Positions 23,748 through 63,408 of a stretch of DNA of 64,000 nt are shown here, piece after piece. Under the pieces are notes generated by a model that was not told where the DNA came from, searched no databases, and was given only the letters and a program-made list of their open reading frames with translations. Location: contig SEAD01000013.1 in the NCBI GenBank assembly GCA_004173355.1, positions 1 through 64,000 of the forward strand, written 5' to 3'. A program made the translations under genes and the position numbers. This DNA is from Chitinophagaceae bacterium. Lineage in GTDB: Bacteria; Bacteroidota; Bacteroidia; Chitinophagales; Chitinophagaceae. Position 1 is the stretch's first letter. Each line of letters starts with the position of its first letter.

Positions 23748-24686
23748 TCATCCCACGGGTACCGCCCCTCGTGTTTTATTTTTCCTGATTTTTTCCGGGA
23801 TGGTCAGCAGGATTTCCTCTTTCAGTATCCCGATAAGTTTTTGCTTCACAAAATTACGGTGCACCACGATACTGACTTCCCGCATCGGCGAAGGCTTGCG
23901 GAAATGACGCAGCAGCTGTGAATCACGTGCCGGCATATCCAGTGTGGCAAGCTCAGGGATGATGGTGATGCCGTCGTTCAGTTCCACCATACGCCGGAGC
24001 GTTTCGATACTACCGGCCTCATAATCGAAACTGCTGCTGGCACGACTCTGTTTCTGCAATTCACAGAGATTGACAATCTGCGAACGGAAACAATGGCCTT
24101 CCTCCAGCAACCATAGTTTATTGGGATCGATATCCTGCGGAAGGATATAGGTTTTATTATAAACCGAATTGCGCCGCGACACATAGGCCATCAGCTCCTC
24201 ATAAAACAATACAATCTCTTTCACACTCGGGTCCTGCAGCGGGGTGACGAGGATACCGGCATCCAGCTTGCCTTCCCTGAGTTTGGTGATAATAGACTCC
24301 GTCATCAGCTCATGTACGATCAGCCTGACAGACGGATATTTTTTCCCGAAGGAACGGATGAACAATGGCAGCAGGTAGGGGGCCACCGTCGGTATGATCC
24401 CGATCCGCAACTCCCCGCTGAAAATGCCCTTCTGCTCCTGCACCGACTCCAGCAGGTCATCCCGGCCGGCTATCACCCTGCGCGCTTTTTCAATGATACC
24501 CACACCTGCGTCTGTGGGCACGACAGGCTGTTTGCTCCGGTCAAAAATTTTTATCTCCAGCTCTTCTTCCAGCTTCTGGATCTGCATACTGAGTGTTGGC
24601 TGGGTCACAAAACAATGTTCCGCTGCACGGGCGAAATGGCGCCATGTATCAACCGCGAGGATATATTCGAGCTGGATGAGGGTCAT
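23748..24686 (-). CDS. oxyR: OxyR-type LysR-family hydrogen peroxide sensor
   Basis: A 312-residue LysR regulator. The N-terminal helix-turn-helix is at about 1-60 (QLEYILAVDTWRHFARAAEH, TLSMQIQKLEEELEIKIFDR) and the effector domain is at about 90-300. The segment LLEEGHCFRSQIVNLCEL places cysteines at residues 199 and 208, the same positions and spacing as the redox pair of E. coli OxyR, so peroxide sensing by disulfide formation is well supported. OxyR normally activates catalase, peroxiredoxin and Dps genes; none is adjacent. Palindromic repeats at the gene's own start suggest autoregulation. Confidence 0.92.
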   Translation of the reverse strand: MTLIQLEYILAVDTWRHFARAAEHCFVTQPTLSMQIQKLEEELEIKIFDRSKQPVVPTDAGVGIIEKARRVIAGRDDLLESVQEQKGIFSGELRIGIIPTVAPYLLPLFIRSFGKKYPSVRLIVHELMTESIITKLREGKLDAGILVTPLQDPSVKEIVLFYEELMAYVSRRNSVYNKTYILPQDIDPNKLWLLEEGHCFRSQIVNLCELQKQSRASSSFDYEAGSIETLRRMVELNDGITIIPELATLDMPARDSQLLRHFRKPSPMREVSIVVHRNFVKQKLIGILKEEILLTIPEKIRKNKTRGAVPVG

Positions 24687-36745: not shown

Positions 36746-36884
36746 GCGATTCAGGCGCCGCACATTCAGGCTGCCGGACAAATAACGATACTACCGCCCG
36801 AGGATAACCCAATCCCTCTAACCCGGCGATCGATTATATTGCTTTTCTCTTTATTCATCCGCATCTGCGGTTTAACTAATCACC

Positions 36885-38246
36885 ATGAAACAAAAATGGC
36901 TTGTGCTGACGGGTCTCCTGCTGGGTATCACGGCTTCGGCCCAACCCCGGTTACCCGAACATTATTTCTGGAAAAAACTGGACAATGGCCTTGAAGTGAT
37001 CGTCATTGAAAACAGCAGGGTACCGCTGGCCACCATTGAGATCGCAGTAAAAAACGGCGCCTACACCGAAGGACCCGAATACAGTGGACTTTCGCACCTG
37101 TTTGAACACATGTTCTTCAAGGCAAATAAAGATTACCCCGACCAGGAAAAGTTTATCAACCGTACCGAGGAGCTGGGTATGATCTGGAATGGTACCACCA
37201 ATGTGGAAAGGGTGAATTATTATTTTACATATGACCGGGACAGTCTTGATGCAGGCCTGAAATTCATGAATGCTGCCATCCGGTTCCCGATCTACCGTAC
37301 GGAAGACATGCAGAAGGAACGGCCGGTAGTGGATGGGGAATTCCAGCGCGCAGAAAGCAGTCCCTATTTCCAGCTCTGGCTGGAAACACAGAAGAAGTCA
37401 TGGGGTGATAACGTCACACGCAAGAATCCCATCGGCGACCATGATGTGATCAACAGCGCCACCCCGGAAAAGATGATGATCATCAAGGATAAATATTATT
37501 TCCCCAATAATTCTGTGCTGGTCATTGCAGGCGATGTAAAACATGAAGCAGCCTTTGAATCGGTCCGGTCCATTTTCGGCGACTGGAAAGCCAGTGATTT
37601 TGACCCGCACCAGAAGTTCCCCATCCCGGAATTCAAGCCACTGACCCAAAATGAATACTTCATCCGGGAATCATCCATCGCGCAGACCCCGTTTATCATG
37701 TACCAGTGGCATGGACCCGATACACGTAATGATTCAGCCAACACCATCGTTGCCGATGTATTCAACGGCATACTGTCGCAGAATTCCTCGGCCTGGTCGC
37801 AGGCACTGATCGACAAACGACTGGCTACCATGGCACAGGTCCAGTACACAACCAACAAATACGTGGGACCCATCACCGTAGTGGTAATGCCCAACCCAAC
37901 AAAAATGAAGGAGTGTATCGCTGAAATTGACCGCCAGATTTCAATGATGGCAGACCCTGGTTATTTTACTGATGAACAGCTGAAGACTGCAAAACAGACA
38001 ATCATCCGCAACCGGATCCGCCGCACAGAAAAGCCGTCTTCCCTCGCAAGTGATATTACCTACTGGTGGTGCAGTGCCAACCTGGATTTTTTCACCGACT
38101 ATGTATCCAACACCCAGAAGGTGACCAGCCAGCAACTGGCTGACTATGCAAAAAAATACATGATCGGGAAACCACATGTAGCGGGCATTGTAATCAGCAA
38201 GGAAATGAATGAACAGCTGAAACCGGCTGAATACTTTAAAAACTAA
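36885..38246 (+). CDS. M16-family zinc peptidase, catalytic subunit, exported
   Basis: A 453-residue insulinase/pitrilysin-type peptidase with a signal peptide (1-19, MKQKWLVLTGLLLGITASA). The inverted zinc motif HLFEH is at 71-75 (H71, E74, H75), and a downstream glutamate at E152 in VVDGEFQRAES lies 77 residues after H75, as needed for the third zinc ligand. It has two halves, about 20-240 and 250-453, as expected for one chain of a two-chain M16 enzyme. The partner gene starts 3 bp after its stop. It probably degrades peptides in the periplasm; substrate unknown. Confidence 0.92.
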   Translation: MKQKWLVLTGLLLGITASAQPRLPEHYFWKKLDNGLEVIVIENSRVPLATIEIAVKNGAYTEGPEYSGLSHLFEHMFFKANKDYPDQEKFINRTEELGMIWNGTTNVERVNYYFTYDRDSLDAGLKFMNAAIRFPIYRTEDMQKERPVVDGEFQRAESSPYFQLWLETQKKSWGDNVTRKNPIGDHDVINSATPEKMMIIKDKYYFPNNSVLVIAGDVKHEAAFESVRSIFGDWKASDFDPHQKFPIPEFKPLTQNEYFIRESSIAQTPFIMYQWHGPDTRNDSANTIVADVFNGILSQNSSAWSQALIDKRLATMAQVQYTTNKYVGPITVVVMPNPTKMKECIAEIDRQISMMADPGYFTDEQLKTAKQTIIRNRIRRTEKPSSLASDITYWWCSANLDFFTDYVSNTQKVTSQQLADYAKKYMIGKPHVAGIVISKEMNEQLKPAEYFKN

Positions 38247-42329: not shown

Positions 42330-42676
42330 GCCGAAAGGTAAAACCGTCGCCGTAAAAAAAATGTTAAACGACGAGGTAAAGGATATAGTACAGGCGGGGC
42401 CAGGATCGCCATAGCCTTGTCGGGCAAGGGCTAGGGGACAGTGGCAGGATTGCAGATGGCGGGGGCCTTTGGCCGGCACAGCGTGGCGAACTGGCCCCGG
42501 CTGTACGGTCGGGGAAATGAAGCGTACGCAGGGGGTTGACGGGAAGCAGGTCCGGCTGGCAGGTCATAAAAAAAACCCCGATGTAAAAAACACCAGGGTT
42601 ACAACTAAAAACACTAAGATTTAAAAAGTCTTCATCGGAACAAAACAAGTATACCGGCGCGGGGCCGGTATAAATA
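42330..42676. other. Spacer between the dcw cluster and the small exported protein
   Basis: No gene is seen in these 347 bp. From about 42,390 to 42,550 the sequence is G+C-rich with several short hairpins (CCTTG/CAAGG around 42415-42429, GGCC-TTT-GGCC near 42465). The ftsZ terminator occupies the right part. The rest presumably holds the leftward promoter of the small exported protein gene, but I see no good consensus match. Confidence 0.45.
42566..42600 (-). terminator. Terminator at the end of the dcw cluster, after ftsZ
   Basis: On the minus strand AACCCTGGTG (42600-42591) pairs with CATCGGGGTT (42583-42574) with two G-T pairs and a 7-nt loop, followed by a long T run. It is about 75 bp past the ftsZ stop. 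Confidence 0.8.
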
Positions 42677-44611
42677 TCAATCAGGCTTTTTGCCTTCAAG
42701 GAATGTGTTGATCGTACTGATCTGCGTTTTATTATTCTTGTCAGTCTTCACCTCGTAGCTACTGTAAAAGTTTTCCACGCTGGAAGCACTGTTGTATAAT
42801 TCCATGTTGCGGCGGATATATGCCGGCACGTTTTCAAACTCATTATTCGGATCATTTCCGTTGACGTTGAATGACAAGTTGCGCAGCTTGTGCAGTCTGT
42901 CGGACGCCCTACGTTTCTGGTCCTCAGCTTCGTCCTGCATCGCAGGATCCTCAGCAATCGAACTCAAAGGTGGTTGAGCCTGATGGGCCAACGGCTTATC
43001 CGCCGCAGGAATGTCATCCTTCTCTACCAGTTGCATCTGCATGTCCGAGGGTTCGTCCTCTTTTGCGGCAACAGTTGGTGGAGGGACCGGCTTTTCTACA
43101 GAAGAAGGGGCAGGAACCGATGGTTCCGCTTTCGCTTCCGCGTAGATATTGGATGGTCTGGCCAGGTAACCTCCCGATGCTGCAGGCAAAGGAATATTAC
43201 TATCCTGAATAGTCTGTTGGAAATAAAGAGGGGTACTTATTCCTGATCCGTGCACGGGATCCGGCTGTTGATTTACAAAGGAAGGTTGTTGATGGAGTGA
43301 ATTTACGGTAACGGGATTATCCGGCGTAATGAAGTTGTTCACGGTAGATGTACGCACCGCATCATCCGTAGTTTTCCCAGGGGTTTTTACCTGAGCGTCC
43401 ACACACTCCTGTGTATCAAGCGTAAGCCGGATGGCTTCCTCTTCCCTTGCCGGGAATAATTCGGGTGCGGTTGCCACCGGTGCTACAGCCGCCTGTGCAT
43501 CTACCAGCTTCGGCGCCATCGGATCAGCCACCAGCACTGGTTGTGGTTTTGGTTGTGGTTTCACAACAGGTTGCCCAAGCACCATCATGATTTTTTCTTC
43601 CTTCTTTGGTGCTTCTTTTGGCAGCACAGGTTTGGCAAACATCTCTTTATGTTCGAATCCTGTTGCAATGAGTGTGATACCAATTTTATCACCAAGTGAG
43701 TTATCATAACCGAGACCAAGGATCACATCTGTGCCCTCACCTGCCTGTGTCAGCAATTGTGCCTGGATCACTTCCACTTCGTCCATGGTAAACTCATGTT
43801 CACCTTCGGCTGAATTGATATTGATCAGGATCCATTTCGCGCCGCGGATTTCATTGTCATTCAGCAATGGTGAATTGAGTGCCTGCTCGATAGCCATATG
43901 CGCACGTCCTTCGCCAGCCACTGCCGAACTTCCGAGGATTGCCACGCCGCCATTTTTCATAACGGTGCACACATCCGCAAAGTCAACGTTGATCTGGCCT
44001 GTGCTGTTGATTACATCGGTAATACATTTTGCAGCAGTGGCGAGTACATTATCTGCCCGTTCAAATGCTTCACGCATTTTGAGGTTTCCAAACTGGTGAC
44101 GCAGTTTATCGTTGCTGATCACCAGCAGTGTGTCCACATAACCCTTGAGTGTTTTGATCCCTTCCTCGGCCTGGATCTGGCGTTTCTTCCCTTCGTAGGA
44201 AAACGGCATCGTTACGATACCCACTGTCAGGATACCGAGGTCCTTACAAACCTTCGCGATGATCGGGGCACCACCGGTACCGGTGCCACCACCCATTCCG
44301 GCAGTGATAAACGCCATCTTTGTATTTACTTCAAGGATGCCTTTCAGTTCCTCCAGCGATTCTTCGGTTGCCTGGCGACCGATTTCCGGATTTGCACCCG
44401 CCCCGAGTCCCTGCGTGAGGTGTGGTCCCAGCTGCACCCGGTTAGGGATACCGCTGTTTGCCAGTGCCTGCGCATCGGTATTACAGATAATAAAATTTAC
44501 CCCATCAATGTTCTGGCTGAACATGTGGTTAACCGCGTTGCCCCCGCCCCCGCCGACACCGATCACTTTAATGATGGATGACTTTTCTTTTGGCAAATCA
44601 AAATGTATCAT
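42677..44611 (-). CDS. ftsZ: Cell division GTPase FtsZ, long form
   Basis: FtsZ polymerises into the Z ring at mid-cell. At 644 residues it is far longer than the ~380-400 of most bacteria. The GTPase and activation domains span about 12-325, with VIGVGGGGGNAVNHM and the tubulin signature GGGTGTG at 107-113. A disordered Pro/Gln/Val-rich linker follows (about 330-560). The conserved FtsA-binding-like peptide VPAYIRR is at about 595-601, but 43 more residues follow it (ending TINTFLEGKKPD), as in other Bacteroidota. Last gene of the cluster; 122 bp after ftsA, with a hairpin in that gap. Confidence 0.97.
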   Translation of the reverse strand: MIHFDLPKEKSSIIKVIGVGGGGGNAVNHMFSQNIDGVNFIICNTDAQALANSGIPNRVQLGPHLTQGLGAGANPEIGRQATEESLEELKGILEVNTKMAFITAGMGGGTGTGGAPIIAKVCKDLGILTVGIVTMPFSYEGKKRQIQAEEGIKTLKGYVDTLLVISNDKLRHQFGNLKMREAFERADNVLATAAKCITDVINSTGQINVDFADVCTVMKNGGVAILGSSAVAGEGRAHMAIEQALNSPLLNDNEIRGAKWILININSAEGEHEFTMDEVEVIQAQLLTQAGEGTDVILGLGYDNSLGDKIGITLIATGFEHKEMFAKPVLPKEAPKKEEKIMMVLGQPVVKPQPKPQPVLVADPMAPKLVDAQAAVAPVATAPELFPAREEEAIRLTLDTQECVDAQVKTPGKTTDDAVRTSTVNNFITPDNPVTVNSLHQQPSFVNQQPDPVHGSGISTPLYFQQTIQDSNIPLPAASGGYLARPSNIYAEAKAEPSVPAPSSVEKPVPPPTVAAKEDEPSDMQMQLVEKDDIPAADKPLAHQAQPPLSSIAEDPAMQDEAEDQKRRASDRLHKLRNLSFNVNGNDPNNEFENVPAYIRRNMELYNSASSVENFYSSYEVKTDKNNKTQISTINTFLEGKKPD

Positions 44612-58799: not shown

Positions 58800-59273
58800 T
58801 CAGGGTTTCAAAAGATCACCCGGATCGATACCCCCGAGCACCTCGTCAGTCAGCCGGCTTATATCGGCCAGTGAAATAGAATCAAAGAGCTGTTTATACT
58901 TATTACTATCCCAGATTTCCAGATGGTCATCATTCCAGGTCATCGTCAGTTCCTTCGTGAGACCGGCAAATTCTTTCAGGTCCTGCGGCACCAGCAGCCT
59001 TCCGGCAGTATCTGGCTCCACGTAAGCAGCATTGTCCAGGAAAAAGCGTTTTACGACCCGCTGTTTTTCCGAAAAACCGTTCAGACCACCGACCTTCGCA
59101 CGAAACGGCGCCCAGGTATTTATGGTGAATAAACTCACACAACCGTCCAACCCCTTAGTCATTACGAAGCGTACTCCCTCCTCCTCCGACAACTGCTTTT
59201 TAAAGTTTGCCGGCAGGAGAAATCGGCCTTTGGGATCCAAAGTGCCGGTATATCCGCCTAGAATGTCTATCAT
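58800..59273 (-). CDS. mraZ: Transcriptional regulator MraZ
   Basis: MraZ is the ring-shaped DNA-binding protein that represses the dcw operon it heads. The 157-residue protein has two SpoVT-AbrB-like repeats; the DXXXR signatures are in LDPKGRFLLPANFK and in PDTAGRLLVPQDLK. The ATG at 59273 was chosen (IDILGGYTGTLDPKG); a TTG two codons upstream is in frame. First gene of the cluster, under a promoter that overlaps four GTG repeats. Confidence 0.96.
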   Translation of the reverse strand: MIDILGGYTGTLDPKGRFLLPANFKKQLSEEEGVRFVMTKGLDGCVSLFTINTWAPFRAKVGGLNGFSEKQRVVKRFFLDNAAYVEPDTAGRLLVPQDLKEFAGLTKELTMTWNDDHLEIWDSNKYKQLFDSISLADISRLTDEVLGGIDPGDLLKP

Positions 59274-59297
59274 TATCAATCAATTGGAGAGATCACC

Positions 59298-59358: not shown

Positions 59359-59470
59359 TTTTCCACAGGATCGCCTTGCCCTGAACAGTTTACGCAGCGC
59401 GGCTTTCCGCCGCTGGCGGGGCTTTTAAGGGAAAAAATGATGTGAATTACCTGTGGATTGCGGTGGATAA
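59359..59470. promoter_or_regulatory. Cluster of DnaA-box-like nonamers between mraZ and queA
   Basis: TTTTCCACA at 59359-59367 fits the DnaA-box consensus TTWTNCACA exactly. On the other strand 59462-59470 reads TTATCCACC (one mismatch) and 59452-59460 reads CAATCCACA (two mismatches); these two are 10 bp apart. They flank a G+C-rich hairpin (about 59394-59415) and overlap the region where the queA promoter should be. No origin-type AT-rich unwinding array or dnaA/dnaN gene is nearby. Confidence 0.35.
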
Positions 59471-59514
59471 ACTGTTACTTTCGTTGGCCTGAAACACGAC
59501 AGTCAGTCGCGCCT

Positions 59515-60717
59515 ATGCATCCAAGCCAGCTTTCGATTTCCGACTATACATATGATTTACCGGCCAGCCGGATTGCCGGCTACCCCCTGCCGGAAAGGGA
59601 TGCTTCGCGTCTCCTGGTCTGGGAAAATGGCCAGCTTTCCGAAACGGTTTACCGATCGCTGCCCGACTATCTCGATGCAGGTTCACTGGTGGTTTTCAAT
59701 AACAGCCGGGTCATTGAAGCGCGCCTTCTTTTTTATAAAGAATCGGGTGCAAGAATTGAAATCTTCTGTCTCGAACCGCACAACCAGTACCCCGACCTGC
59801 AGGTGGCAATGCAACAGAAGGGATCGGTGTTATGGTGCTGCATGGTTGGCGGGGCATCCAAATGGAAGCGCGGCTCCATCCTCGAAAAACGGTTGGAGGT
59901 AAATGGCCGTGTACTCATCCTCCAGGCACTGTTCAGCGATCGCCGGAGCAGCGATACCGTAATCGAACTGACCTGGAATGATGAGGAAATGTCGTTTGCC
60001 GAATTGCTGCACCATGCGGGTGATATGCCATTGCCTCCCTATATTAAACGTAAGGCTGAAACACTTGACCAGCAACGGTACCAGACGATTTATGCCGACC
60101 AGTCGGGATCGGTGGCCGCACCCACTGCGGGACTGCATTTCACTGATGCCGTTTTTGAAAAGCTGCAGGAAAGAAACATCAGCACCGCCTATTTGACACT
60201 TCATGTAGGTGCAGGTACGTTTAAACCCGTAAGCAGCGACCAGATGTCGGGCCACGATATGCATTCCGAACTTATCGATGTCAAAAGGGACACGATCCTG
60301 CAATTGATTGAGCATTTCCCGAAGGGGATCACAGCGGTTGGCACTACCAGTCTCCGCACACTCGAAAGCCTCTACTGGTTTGGCCTGCAGGTGATCGCCG
60401 AGAGGATTGGCGACGGACTGCCGGTGCTTGACCAATGGGAACCATACGAAGTGGACGCGCGGACGAGTGCAACCGAATCGTTATCGGCCCTGGTAAAATG
60501 GATGGATGAAAACGGAAAGACCAGTTTCGTTGCAAAAACCAGGATCCTTGTGGCACCCGGTTACCGGCTGCGTGTCATACGTGCGCTGGTCACCAATTTC
60601 CACCAGCCAAAATCAACACTGTTGCTGCTGATTGCCGCGATAATGGGGGACGACTGGAAAAGGATGTACCAGTATGCGATGGACAATGGTTTCCGGTTCC
60701 TGGTATGTGCCCGGTAA
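59515..60717 (+). CDS. queA: S-adenosylmethionine:tRNA ribosyltransferase-isomerase, C-terminus altered
   Basis: QueA moves the ribosyl part of SAM to preQ1 in tRNA, making epoxyqueuosine. The 400-residue protein has YDLPASRIAGYPLPERDASRLLV in segments, VVFNNSRVIEARL, PLPPYIKR, YADQSGSVAAPTAGLHFT, LHVGAGTFKPV, HSELIDV, GTTSLRTLES and LVTNFHQPKSTLLLLIAA. The family normally ends in FRFLSYGDxSLL; here it reads FRFLVCAR and stops, so the last ~8 residues are missing exactly where the opposing kinase gene also breaks. The ATG at 59515 was chosen; the frame extends 19 codons upstream. Confidence 0.93.
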   Translation: MHPSQLSISDYTYDLPASRIAGYPLPERDASRLLVWENGQLSETVYRSLPDYLDAGSLVVFNNSRVIEARLLFYKESGARIEIFCLEPHNQYPDLQVAMQQKGSVLWCCMVGGASKWKRGSILEKRLEVNGRVLILQALFSDRRSSDTVIELTWNDEEMSFAELLHHAGDMPLPPYIKRKAETLDQQRYQTIYADQSGSVAAPTAGLHFTDAVFEKLQERNISTAYLTLHVGAGTFKPVSSDQMSGHDMHSELIDVKRDTILQLIEHFPKGITAVGTTSLRTLESLYWFGLQVIAERIGDGLPVLDQWEPYEVDARTSATESLSALVKWMDENGKTSFVAKTRILVAPGYRLRVIRALVTNFHQPKSTLLLLIAAIMGDDWKRMYQYAMDNGFRFLVCAR

Positions 60718-61907
60718 AAACGTTCGAATACACGCTTCACCGTTTCCTTGCTCATACCAATGCCGTTGTCTTCCACCCGGATGGTGAGTGTCCGGTCATT
60801 TGACGAGGTGGTCAGTTTCACATGCAGCGGTACATTTTCCTTTGAATATTTTACCGCATTGTCGATAAGGTTATTGATCAGGTTGGACAGGTGTACCTCA
60901 TCTGCATTGATCAGGTCATTGGTCGCCTGCAGGTTTACTTCTGCATTGCCCTGTTTATCCTGCAACTGCAATGCAAAGTTATCAACCACATCGGTGATGA
61001 TACTGTGTACATGCAGAGGCTGCAGGTTGAGGTCGACCTCCTGCCGCTCCAGCTGCGATGCCTTGAGGATGGTTTCGACCTGGCGGTTCATACGCTGGTT
61101 TTCTTCCTTGATGATACTGCTGAAATAAGTAATCTTGGTGCGGTCCTGTATGACCTTTTCATTCTTCAATGCATCCACCGCCAGCGAGATAGTGGCGATA
61201 GGCGTCTTGAACTCATGGGTCATGTTGTTGATGAAATCATTTTTGATTTCACCCAGTTTTTTCTGCCGCAGTGCCGTGCGTACGGTGAGATAAAATGCGG
61301 TGATGATGATGATGGTAAAAATGATGGCCGTGAGGATCCGGTATTTTAATGACTTGACCGCAAAACTCTTCCAGTTCAGCGCCACGATGCTCAGGATTTC
61401 ATCTTCGGCAAGATTTTCTGCGGCTGAACCACTTGGGGCAAACAGTGGGAAGGTCCGTTGCAGGTTATTAACGGTGTCTTCATATTCGCGGGCAAAATTG
61501 CGGGAGATACGCTCGGCGCGCGCAATAGCATCGGTGCGCGGATTAAATGTAGCGAGCATGAATTCATAATTCATTTTCTCCAGCTTCACTTTCTTGAAAG
61601 CTTCCCGGATTTTCTGGTCCAGCTCAGCCGCACTGAAACGTTTGCCGAGCGTAACCGGTTTGAGGAAATCGGAATTGAACTCATCAAACATGAGGGTATT
61701 GGGCGTTGAAGGCCGGCTAAGGCTCATGTAATTGCCTTTATACTGGCGAAGGTCCTCCCCCACTATATTCAGTGCCTGCTGTATTTTGTCTGTCACCTGG
61801 TCTTCCTGCAGGATAATCATGTTCCGCAACCAGGAGATCTGTATGAAGATTATCCCGATCAGGGAGATACTGATCAGGATGGTAATCACAGTAAAAATTC
61901 TTTTCAA
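60561..61907 (-). pseudogene. RprX-like sensor histidine kinase, 3' end lost at junction with queA
   Basis: A membrane kinase: helix 1 at about 4-26, a periplasmic sensor at about 27-190, helix 2 at about 191-209, H box MTHEFKTPIATI with H231, N box NLINNLIDNAVKYS, G1 box VEDNGIGM (D380) and F box FERFYR (394-399). After AHT (400-402) homology ends: the G2 box (GLGL), which closes the ATP site, and about 45 residues are absent. The remaining frame (to residue 448) is only the antisense of queA. The usual adjacent response regulator gene is also missing. Probably inactive as a kinase, unless the junction is an assembly error. Confidence 0.8.
60690..60716. other. Junction where queA and the kinase both lose homology
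   Basis: The rightward queA frame follows its family up to FRFL (codon ending 60702) and then reads VCAR-stop; the leftward kinase frame follows its family down to about 60702 (FYRAHT) and then runs antisense into queA. Two convergent genes thus share one breakpoint, as expected from a deletion or a false join. Confidence 0.7.
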
Positions 61908-62100
61908 AACGGTTTCACTTTACGGAAAGATAGAATGTTTTTGTTTTACGGCGCCAGCATGCAAAAATAACCAAGCCTTTCCGAACACTCAATAATACAG
62001 TGGGTTCGGGGCATTTTTTAACGCTGATTTTAACCGTTTCTGATCCATAATATTGTAAACAAAGGTTTTTGGGGATTCGGATTATGCAGTAAATTGAAGT

Positions 62101-62649
62101 ATGATTGAACCACGGGCAGGCGCTTTACTGATAGCGGATCCCTTCCTGAAGGATCCGAACTTCCTCCGGACGGTTGTTTTCCTCTGCGAACACCGGGAGG
62201 ACGGGAGTTTCGGGTTTGTCCTGAACCGCCCTTACGAAAACACCCTTGATGAATTATTGCCGGGTATCTTCCAGCAGTTCCCGGTGTTTTATGGCGGCCC
62301 CGTGCAGCGTGACAGCATCCATTTTATCCATCAATATCCCGACAAGATCCCGGGTGGTACCGAAGTAATGGAAGGGGTATTCTGGGGTGGTGATTTCAGC
62401 CGCCTCGTGGACCTGCTCAAGGAAGGGGAGATCGAGGAACGTAAAATCCGGTTCTTTATCGGCTATTCCGGATGGAGTGCCGGACAGCTGGATGAGGAGA
62501 TGAAGGAAAAAACCTGGCTGACCGCCGATGCCACCCGCAGGCTGCTGTTCCATCCCGAAAGCGGTGAGATCTGGAAGGATTCGCTGCGTCACCTCGGGGG
62601 CGAATATGAAATGATGATCAACTATCCGATCGATCCGCAGCTGAACTGA
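62101..62649 (+). CDS. YqgE/AlgH family protein
   Basis: A 182-residue soluble protein of the YqgE/AlgH family. Typical segments are GALLIADPFLKDPNFLRTVV, LCEHREDGSFGFVLNRPY, PVFYGGPVQRDSIHFIHQYP and GYSGWSAGQLDEEMKEKTWL. AlgH was named for a link to alginate control in Pseudomonas, but the biochemical role of the family is not known. It starts at the ATG at 62101 and is divergent from the kinase. It may be co-transcribed with the DUF4197 gene 24 bp later. Confidence 0.93.
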   Translation: MIEPRAGALLIADPFLKDPNFLRTVVFLCEHREDGSFGFVLNRPYENTLDELLPGIFQQFPVFYGGPVQRDSIHFIHQYPDKIPGGTEVMEGVFWGGDFSRLVDLLKEGEIEERKIRFFIGYSGWSAGQLDEEMKEKTWLTADATRRLLFHPESGEIWKDSLRHLGGEYEMMINYPIDPQLN

Positions 62650-62673
62650 CCTGCCTTTCCCTACTTTTGCCTC

Positions 62674-63408
62674 ATGAAAAAAATCCTGACCGCCGCGATC
62701 CTATCGCTGACCATGGCCCTCTCGTCGTGCGATGCTGTTAATAAAGTAATCTCCGCAATCGGCCCTACCGAATTTGAGATGGCCGGCGGATTGAAAGATG
62801 CTCTTACCCAGGGATTGTATACCGGGTTTGATGCCTTTGCCAATCCCCAGCAGGGAAATGCATTGTTGCGTTTTGCATTGCCCGGTGATGCGGCAAAGAT
62901 CGAGAAGACATTACGTGATCTGGGGATGACGAACCTGATGAACCAGGTGACAGCCAAATTCACCACAGCTATGAAAGATGCAGTGGTGGCGGCAAAACCT
63001 ATCTTCCTGAGTTCAGTGAAGAAGATGACACTGCGTGATGTGACAGGATTGCTGGTGACCGATAACCAGCGCGCGGCAACCGACTATTTTAAAAATACAA
63101 TGTCTCCCGAACTCATGACAGCGTTCCGTCCGATAGTAGACAGTACCGCGAACCTCAACGGTGCCAACCGTGAATGGAGTAACCTGGTAAACATATACAA
63201 CAAGATCCCGCTTGTGACTACGAAACTGGAACCAAGTCTCACTGATTTCCTTGCCGCGCGGGTGATCGACGGTTTGTTCAGTAAAGTGGCCGAAGAAGAA
63301 ATGAATATCCGCACCAAACTGGAATTCCGGAAAACGGACCTGATGAAAAAAGCTTTCGGTTATGCCGATGAACAATTAAAAAAACGACAGGCCGGCAGCA
63401 GCATGTAA
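62674..63408 (+). CDS. DUF4197 family lipoprotein
   Basis: A 244-residue lipoprotein with a signal peptide and lipobox LSSC at about residues 16-19. The rest is mainly helical and follows the DUF4197 pattern: GGLKDALTQGLYTGFDAF, ALPGDAAKIEKTLRDLGM, MKDAVVAAKPIFLSSVKKM, LLVTDNQRAATDYFK, and TDFLAARVIDGLFSKVAEEE near the C-terminus. Function unknown; it should sit on a membrane facing the periplasm. A terminator follows. Confidence 0.88.
   Translation: MKKILTAAILSLTMALSSCDAVNKVISAIGPTEFEMAGGLKDALTQGLYTGFDAFANPQQGNALLRFALPGDAAKIEKTLRDLGMTNLMNQVTAKFTTAMKDAVVAAKPIFLSSVKKMTLRDVTGLLVTDNQRAATDYFKNTMSPELMTAFRPIVDSTANLNGANREWSNLVNIYNKIPLVTTKLEPSLTDFLAARVIDGLFSKVAEEEMNIRTKLEFRKTDLMKKAFGYADEQLKKRQAGSSM

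Follow-up and report, generated by a model that had tools for sequence, protein, structure and literature searches.

The locus considered here raises the question of why two neighbouring genes that run towards one another, one for a sensor histidine kinase and one for a protein of the QueA family, should both leave their family sequence at the same point, and of whether the organism or its assembly is responsible. The window analysed is a stretch of 64,000 nucleotides, bases 1-64000 of contig C324 of genome G000, a draft Chitinophagaceae assembly whose 372 contigs total 5.36 Mb. On the + strand, the QueA-like open reading frame from 59515 keeps family sequence as far as FRFL (codons 60691-60702) and then closes with VCAR and a stop at 60717; on the - strand, the kinase frame, 61907 to 60561, keeps family sequence as far as FYRAHT, after which its last 46 residues are read antisense to the QueA-like gene. 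A first-pass annotation of this DNA had described both endings in these terms, had set the two breaks at one point near 60,702 and had proposed a deletion scar or a false join. Its reading of the two ends is correct, the shared point is confirmed by the reading frames (taken with the aligned rows of relatives), by profile matches and by one gap of 176 bp against a same-genus relative, and there is support for the core idea, an event that damages both genes at a single point. The features are as follows.

58800-59279, - strand: mraZ-like gene, conserved neighbour of the QueA-like gene, with rsmH-, ftsL- and ftsI-like genes next
59515-60702, + strand: remnant of a QueA-like paralogue, 75% identical to its G001 counterpart over residues 1-396, covering 2-314 of the 322 positions of profile PF02547
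60561-60701, - strand: antisense tail of the kinase frame, 46 residues and a stop, inside the QueA-like gene
60701-60703, no strand: breakpoint, with about 176 bp absent relative to G001 and at most 1 bp of microhomology
60702-61907, - strand: remnant of a sensor histidine kinase, putatively of RprX type, with the sensor part, HisKA with its H box, and the N, G1 and F boxes kept, but the CA domain missing from the G2 box onwards
60703-60717, + strand: new end of the QueA-like frame, VCAR and stop, in sequence antisense to the kinase, where relatives read SYGDG
62101-62649, + strand: YqgE/AlgH-family gene (PF02622), oriented divergently from the kinase and retained beside it in many relatives

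The mraZ-, rsmH-, ftsL- and ftsI-like names are putative assignments made from the sequences themselves.

The nature of the break is best seen against the same-genus genome G001, whose corresponding locus has an identical gene order (DUF4197 gene, yqgE, kinase, QueA-like gene, then mraZ-, rsmH-, ftsL- and ftsI-like genes) and lies on one contig that is collinear with the window flanks on both sides of the join. The kinase and QueA-like genes are complete at their tails in G001, where they overlap by 38 nt and have no gene between them. A DNA alignment of window positions 59430-62693 with this locus contains a single large unbalanced gap, of 176 bp, which is placed at 60694/60695; codon constraints shift the break a few bases further. 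A serine follows [FY]RFL in 24/24 relative rows, and a glycine follows the kinase HT (HN in one row) in 44/44 rows, which represent 43 distinct sequences, as L045 and L068 are one record. Since neither the serine nor the glycine is encoded at the join, the break is limited to 60701-60703 and at most 1 bp can be shared between its two sides. The loss relative to G001 amounts to 50 residues of the kinase and 19 of the QueA-like protein. Alignment of the locus with relatives, as the first-pass annotation had suggested, shows that the two genes are neighbours in a conserved order in G001 and in many other relatives; among the 23 distinct relatives that carry both genes their tails overlap in 10 and abut in three, so that one small deletion can hit both.

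The frequency of such a break was surveyed in a draw of 195 Chitinophagaceae genomes, at E values of at most 1e-60 for the kinase and at most 1e-80 for the QueA-like gene. The kinase was matched in 186 of the 195 genomes, and in 166 of the 167 of good quality; among the best 150 of the 186 matched genomes, the G000 match ends at query residue 405 and the other 149 end at residue 436 or later (of 452). The QueA-like gene was matched in 179 of the 195 genomes, and among the best 150 of these the match ends at residue 396 in G000, at 394 in G075 (where the contig itself ends) and at 404 or later in the other 148. The break is therefore not shared among the matches listed, either for the kinase (0/149) or, with G075 set aside, for the QueA-like gene (0/148). 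Both lists of 150 contain eight matches that are interrupted by a stop. Nor does any relative, among 24 QueA-like and 44 kinase rows, end its QueA-like protein in VCAR or lack the kinase G2 box, arrangements that would have made both endings natural ones. At the same E value of 1e-80 the QueA-like gene is absent from 16 of the 195 genomes, including all three drawn members of each of genera g7 and g15, which indicates that it is dispensable in some lineages; the kinase, by contrast, is nearly always kept.

We lean towards a single, recent and real deletion of about 176 bp at the tail-to-tail junction of the two genes, while noting that our weighting of this reading, like that of the artefact discussed below, is a judgement and not a computed value. 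One such deletion would remove the junction between the RprX-type kinase and the second QueA-like gene in a single step, and blunt end joining would offer a plausible route, because homology at the join amounts to 0-1 bp and Ku is encoded in the genome. As Ku is present in G001 as well as in G000, this circumstance is permissive rather than specific. The lesion is of an ordinary kind, one small lesion in one draft genome, and the surrounding DNA is not rich in others: a comparison of 40 of the 64 kb gave 32 window-to-G001 ORF matches, of which seven were flagged as C-terminally different, and these comprise two at the present site, one cut by the start of the comparison at 24,001, one cut by the end of a G001 contig, one match to a paralogue and two short ORFs, so the compared 40 kb is not full of such scars, which speaks against a generally poor assembly. 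The two short ORFs lie at window positions 36746-36994 and 42364-42747 and may be shadow ORFs.

Several points weigh against a real deletion. The kinase is near-universal, so its loss is unusual; G000 is a draft in 372 contigs; and an intact gene that had been mis-assembled would look equally free of decay. The alternative that profits from them is a local artefact of assembly or library, in which the organism carries both genes at full length and a chimeric read, gap closing or a minority variant dropped the roughly 176 bp. The fully constrained appearance of both remnants, the full reach of the kinase in the other 149 genomes listed and the fragmentation of the draft all suit this account. 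It fits less well with the join itself, where the shared sequence of at most 1 bp argues against a repeat-driven assembler join and would hardly lead a plain k-mer assembler to create one; with the G001 counterpart of the missing DNA (231 nt), which folds no better than its shuffles (z -0.36); with the position of the join some 9.6 kb from the end of a contig of 70306 bp; and with the failure of the missing stretch to appear as a separate piece of the assembly. We hold a local artefact to be a serious possibility, though on balance doubtful. It is the part of the first-pass annotation's mis-assembly proposal that survives, as a false join of unrelated contigs is ruled out by the gene order conserved on both sides of the join and by the retention of the pair in many relatives.

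Two further candidates were rejected. Relocation of the missing stretch within the assembly fails because no counterpart was found in G000, either of the G001 DNA or of the kinase tail, the best match to the tail being a 55% identical stretch of another kinase. A repeat- or hairpin-driven loss is rejected by the join homology of at most 1 bp and the shuffle-level folding.

Selection on the remnants bears on the age of the lesion. The dN/dS ratio is 0.033 for the kinase remnant and 0.078 for the QueA-like remnant, beside 0.038-0.085 for six neighbouring genes, and relative-rate counts of derived changes in G000 and G001 are even for both (12 v 17 for the kinase, 43 v 36 for the QueA-like gene); the most uneven counts fall on intact neighbours, the rsmH-like gene (19 v 9, p 0.087) and the ftsI-like gene (17 v 9, p 0.169). 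Neither dN/dS nor the relative-rate counts thus detect decay or relaxed selection in either remnant, in a test with little power for a young lesion, with two to seven outgroups per gene and with dS of 0.56-2.62, near saturation for most genes. Old pseudogenes are rejected, as both remnants are without decay, and for the same reason the lesion, if real, must be recent compared with the split from G001. The absence of relaxation fits an artefact and a very young deletion alike, and so cannot decide between them.

If the deletion is real, what it cost depends on what the kinase was. The remnant is 89% identical to the G001 kinase over 402 residues and retains a HisKA domain (PF00512, 45.9 bits against a cut-off of 26.9), in which the H box histidine H231 is invariant in sets of 15 and of 26 aligned sequences and the HEFKT motif remains. 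The residues N346/N350, D380-G384 and F394-R399 are mostly invariant in the same two sets and would correspond to the N, G1 and F boxes. The HATPase_c profile is covered over positions 2-67 of 111 in the window kinase and over 2-110 in that of G001. The G2 box (GFGLG) and the C-terminal part of the CA domain are not found in the window kinase, while GFGLG[LM] is present in 44/44 relative rows (43 distinct). The G001 kinase can be aligned with two solved kinases, 3DGE and 2C2A, past its G2 box as far as residue 446. The four CA-domain boxes of histidine kinases are named in PMC9491836. An AlphaFold2 model of the window kinase has a mean pLDDT of 74.7, with means of 35-51 for blocks of 10 residues from residue 391 onwards; it counts as weak evidence, because the alignment behind it made the antisense tail line up with that of the family. 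No NCBIfam kinase model scores above its cut-off for either the window or the G001 kinase among the best 25 of their 75 and 82 matches, respectively, and no RprX model is among those 25.

The assignment to the RprX type comes instead from the gene neighbourhood in other families. The best kinase and best regulator matches are adjacent, with 143-247 bp between the hit ends, in 9/11 genomes of other families of the order, as expected of the RprX/RprY pair of Bacteroidota, and the same neighbourhood suggests that the window kinase is RprX-type and that it would exchange phosphoryl groups with RprY. The first-pass annotation had remarked that an RprY-like regulator usually accompanies such kinases and is absent here. 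The absence is true, and the regulator is the usual neighbour outside the family, but inside Chitinophagaceae its absence is normal: the best kinase and regulator matches are adjacent in 0/23 genomes with both, lying on different contigs in 18 and at least 46 kb apart on one contig in the other five. The check that it had proposed, whether relatives have a regulator between the two genes, came out negative: no response-regulator ORF was found between the kinase and the QueA-like gene in the 23 distinct relatives carrying both. A scan of 44 loci, for which three other regulators of G000 served as queries (flanks measured only about 1.5 kb per side at 7 of the loci, and contig ends cut some others), gave regulator-like ORFs in L076 only, no closer to the kinase than about 3 kb.

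The regulator itself is intact in G000 as an orphan on contig C23 (11094-11789; L173:3095-3790), with no kinase ORF beside it within the 7 kb read. Its best NCBIfam model is RprY, at 295.8 bits, below the model cut-off of 370, and it is 98% identical between G000 and G001 although synonymous sites near the kinase locus are close to saturation. The RprX/RprY-like pair thus appears, from these gene arrangements, to have been split into two loci in Chitinophagaceae long before the break in the window. Here the resemblance to the RprX/RprY of other Bacteroidota ends: the loci were separate before any loss, the window kinase is truncated rather than absent, the C23 regulator scores below the RprY cut-off and the kinase exceeds the cut-off of no listed NCBIfam model. 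Porphyromonas gingivalis offers a parallel: PMC6032018 describes for it a loss of RprX with RprY retained as an orphan.

Histidine kinases in general would not be expected to bind ATP or to autophosphorylate once the G2 box is gone. We infer from its sequence that the window kinase, lacking both the G2 box and the end of the CA domain, would no longer be able to autophosphorylate, and the highly conserved RprY-like regulator on C23 would then be left without its own kinase. A phosphatase-only or dominant-negative remnant is possible. The fuller proposal, in which a small deletion in a family with split rprX and rprY cost the strain a working RprX and the conserved regulator now runs with a kinase-dead, possibly phosphatase-only RprX, is one to which we attach very little probability.

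It is likewise highly unlikely that the truncated kinase has been kept as a working pseudokinase, one that still forms dimers and may act on the RprY-like regulator by dephosphorylation or modulation, with signalling rewired and not destroyed. What makes such a role conceivable is that H231, the HEFKT motif and the N, G1 and F boxes remain, and that in Corynebacterium glutamicum a CA-domain frameshift turned the histidine kinase ChrS into a pseudokinase, with a gain of heme tolerance as the result (PMC9491836). In that case, ChrS-Ala245fs, a 3' lesion likewise ruins the CA domain and leaves the protein with a tail foreign to the family; ChrS, however, breaks right after the DHp domain, whereas the window kinase breaks late in the CA domain, and a close paralogue, HrrS, exists there, whereas the best-scoring other kinase among the G000 matches listed is only 30% identical to the window kinase. 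The CA domain of the window kinase is, moreover, cut within its fold and followed by an antisense tail predicted with low confidence, the same form occurs in no other Chitinophagaceae genome among the matches listed, and a maintained function would be indistinguishable from a lesion too young to decay.

A larger deletion that also took an RprY-like regulator from beside the kinase, as the first-pass annotation had supposed, draws on the adjacency of the two in 9/11 genomes of other families but has next to no probability and is refuted by the same-genus G001, which has no gene between the kinase and the QueA-like gene and differs by a gap of only about 176 bp; the adjacency of the two in 0/23 Chitinophagaceae genomes and the intact regulator on C23 also speak against it.

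Returning to the small deletion, we note that where two genes lie tail to tail a single small loss is enough to break both, and that a missing neighbour should not be taken as a sign of loss before other members of the family have been compared; here that comparison exposed the split RprX/RprY-like arrangement of Chitinophagaceae. A genuine loss would make the strain a natural test of RprY without RprX.

As for the other damaged gene, the first-pass annotation had announced a shortened QueA. The gene in the window is indeed cut, but it is a second, longer QueA-like paralogue, separate from the standard QueA, which is intact on contig C25 of G000 (L164:1298-2344, - strand), scores 452.6 bits against the NF001140 cut-off of 324 and ends in RFFSYGDALLVI. 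Two QueA-family genes, one of them long (E below 1e-100), occur in 21/24 Chitinophagaceae genomes and in 3/15 others. The window protein matches Queuosine_synth (PF02547) with 304.1 bits over positions 2-314 of 322, as compared to 2-322 for the G001 protein, and stands above the TIGR00113 cut-off (280.8 against 267.45); it falls below the NF001140 cut-off of 324 at 315.7, while the G001 form exceeds it at 333.2. QueA is the S-adenosylmethionine:tRNA ribosyltransferase-isomerase, which makes epoxyqueuosine on tRNA. The paralogue belongs to the same Pfam family as the QueA proteins of known structure (PDB 1VKY, 1WDI and 1YY3), and the G001 copy aligns to all three solved sequences, in two of the alignments as far as its C-terminal SYGDG end. 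The window gene differs from these in being the longer second paralogue without that C-terminal motif: [FY]RFLSYGDG is present in 24/24 relative rows (23 distinct) and SYGD is not found at the C-terminus of the window protein. Without the near-invariant SYGDG end, the protein is probably inactive or unstable, to judge from conservation among relatives.

The longer QueA-like paralogue adjoins the mraZ-like gene in many relatives. On its other side, where its tail meets that of the kinase, the stop codons overlap by exactly 4 nt in 7/23 distinct relatives (L043, L046, L051, L069, L070, L071 and L087), and the tails overlap by 29-39 nt in 3/23.
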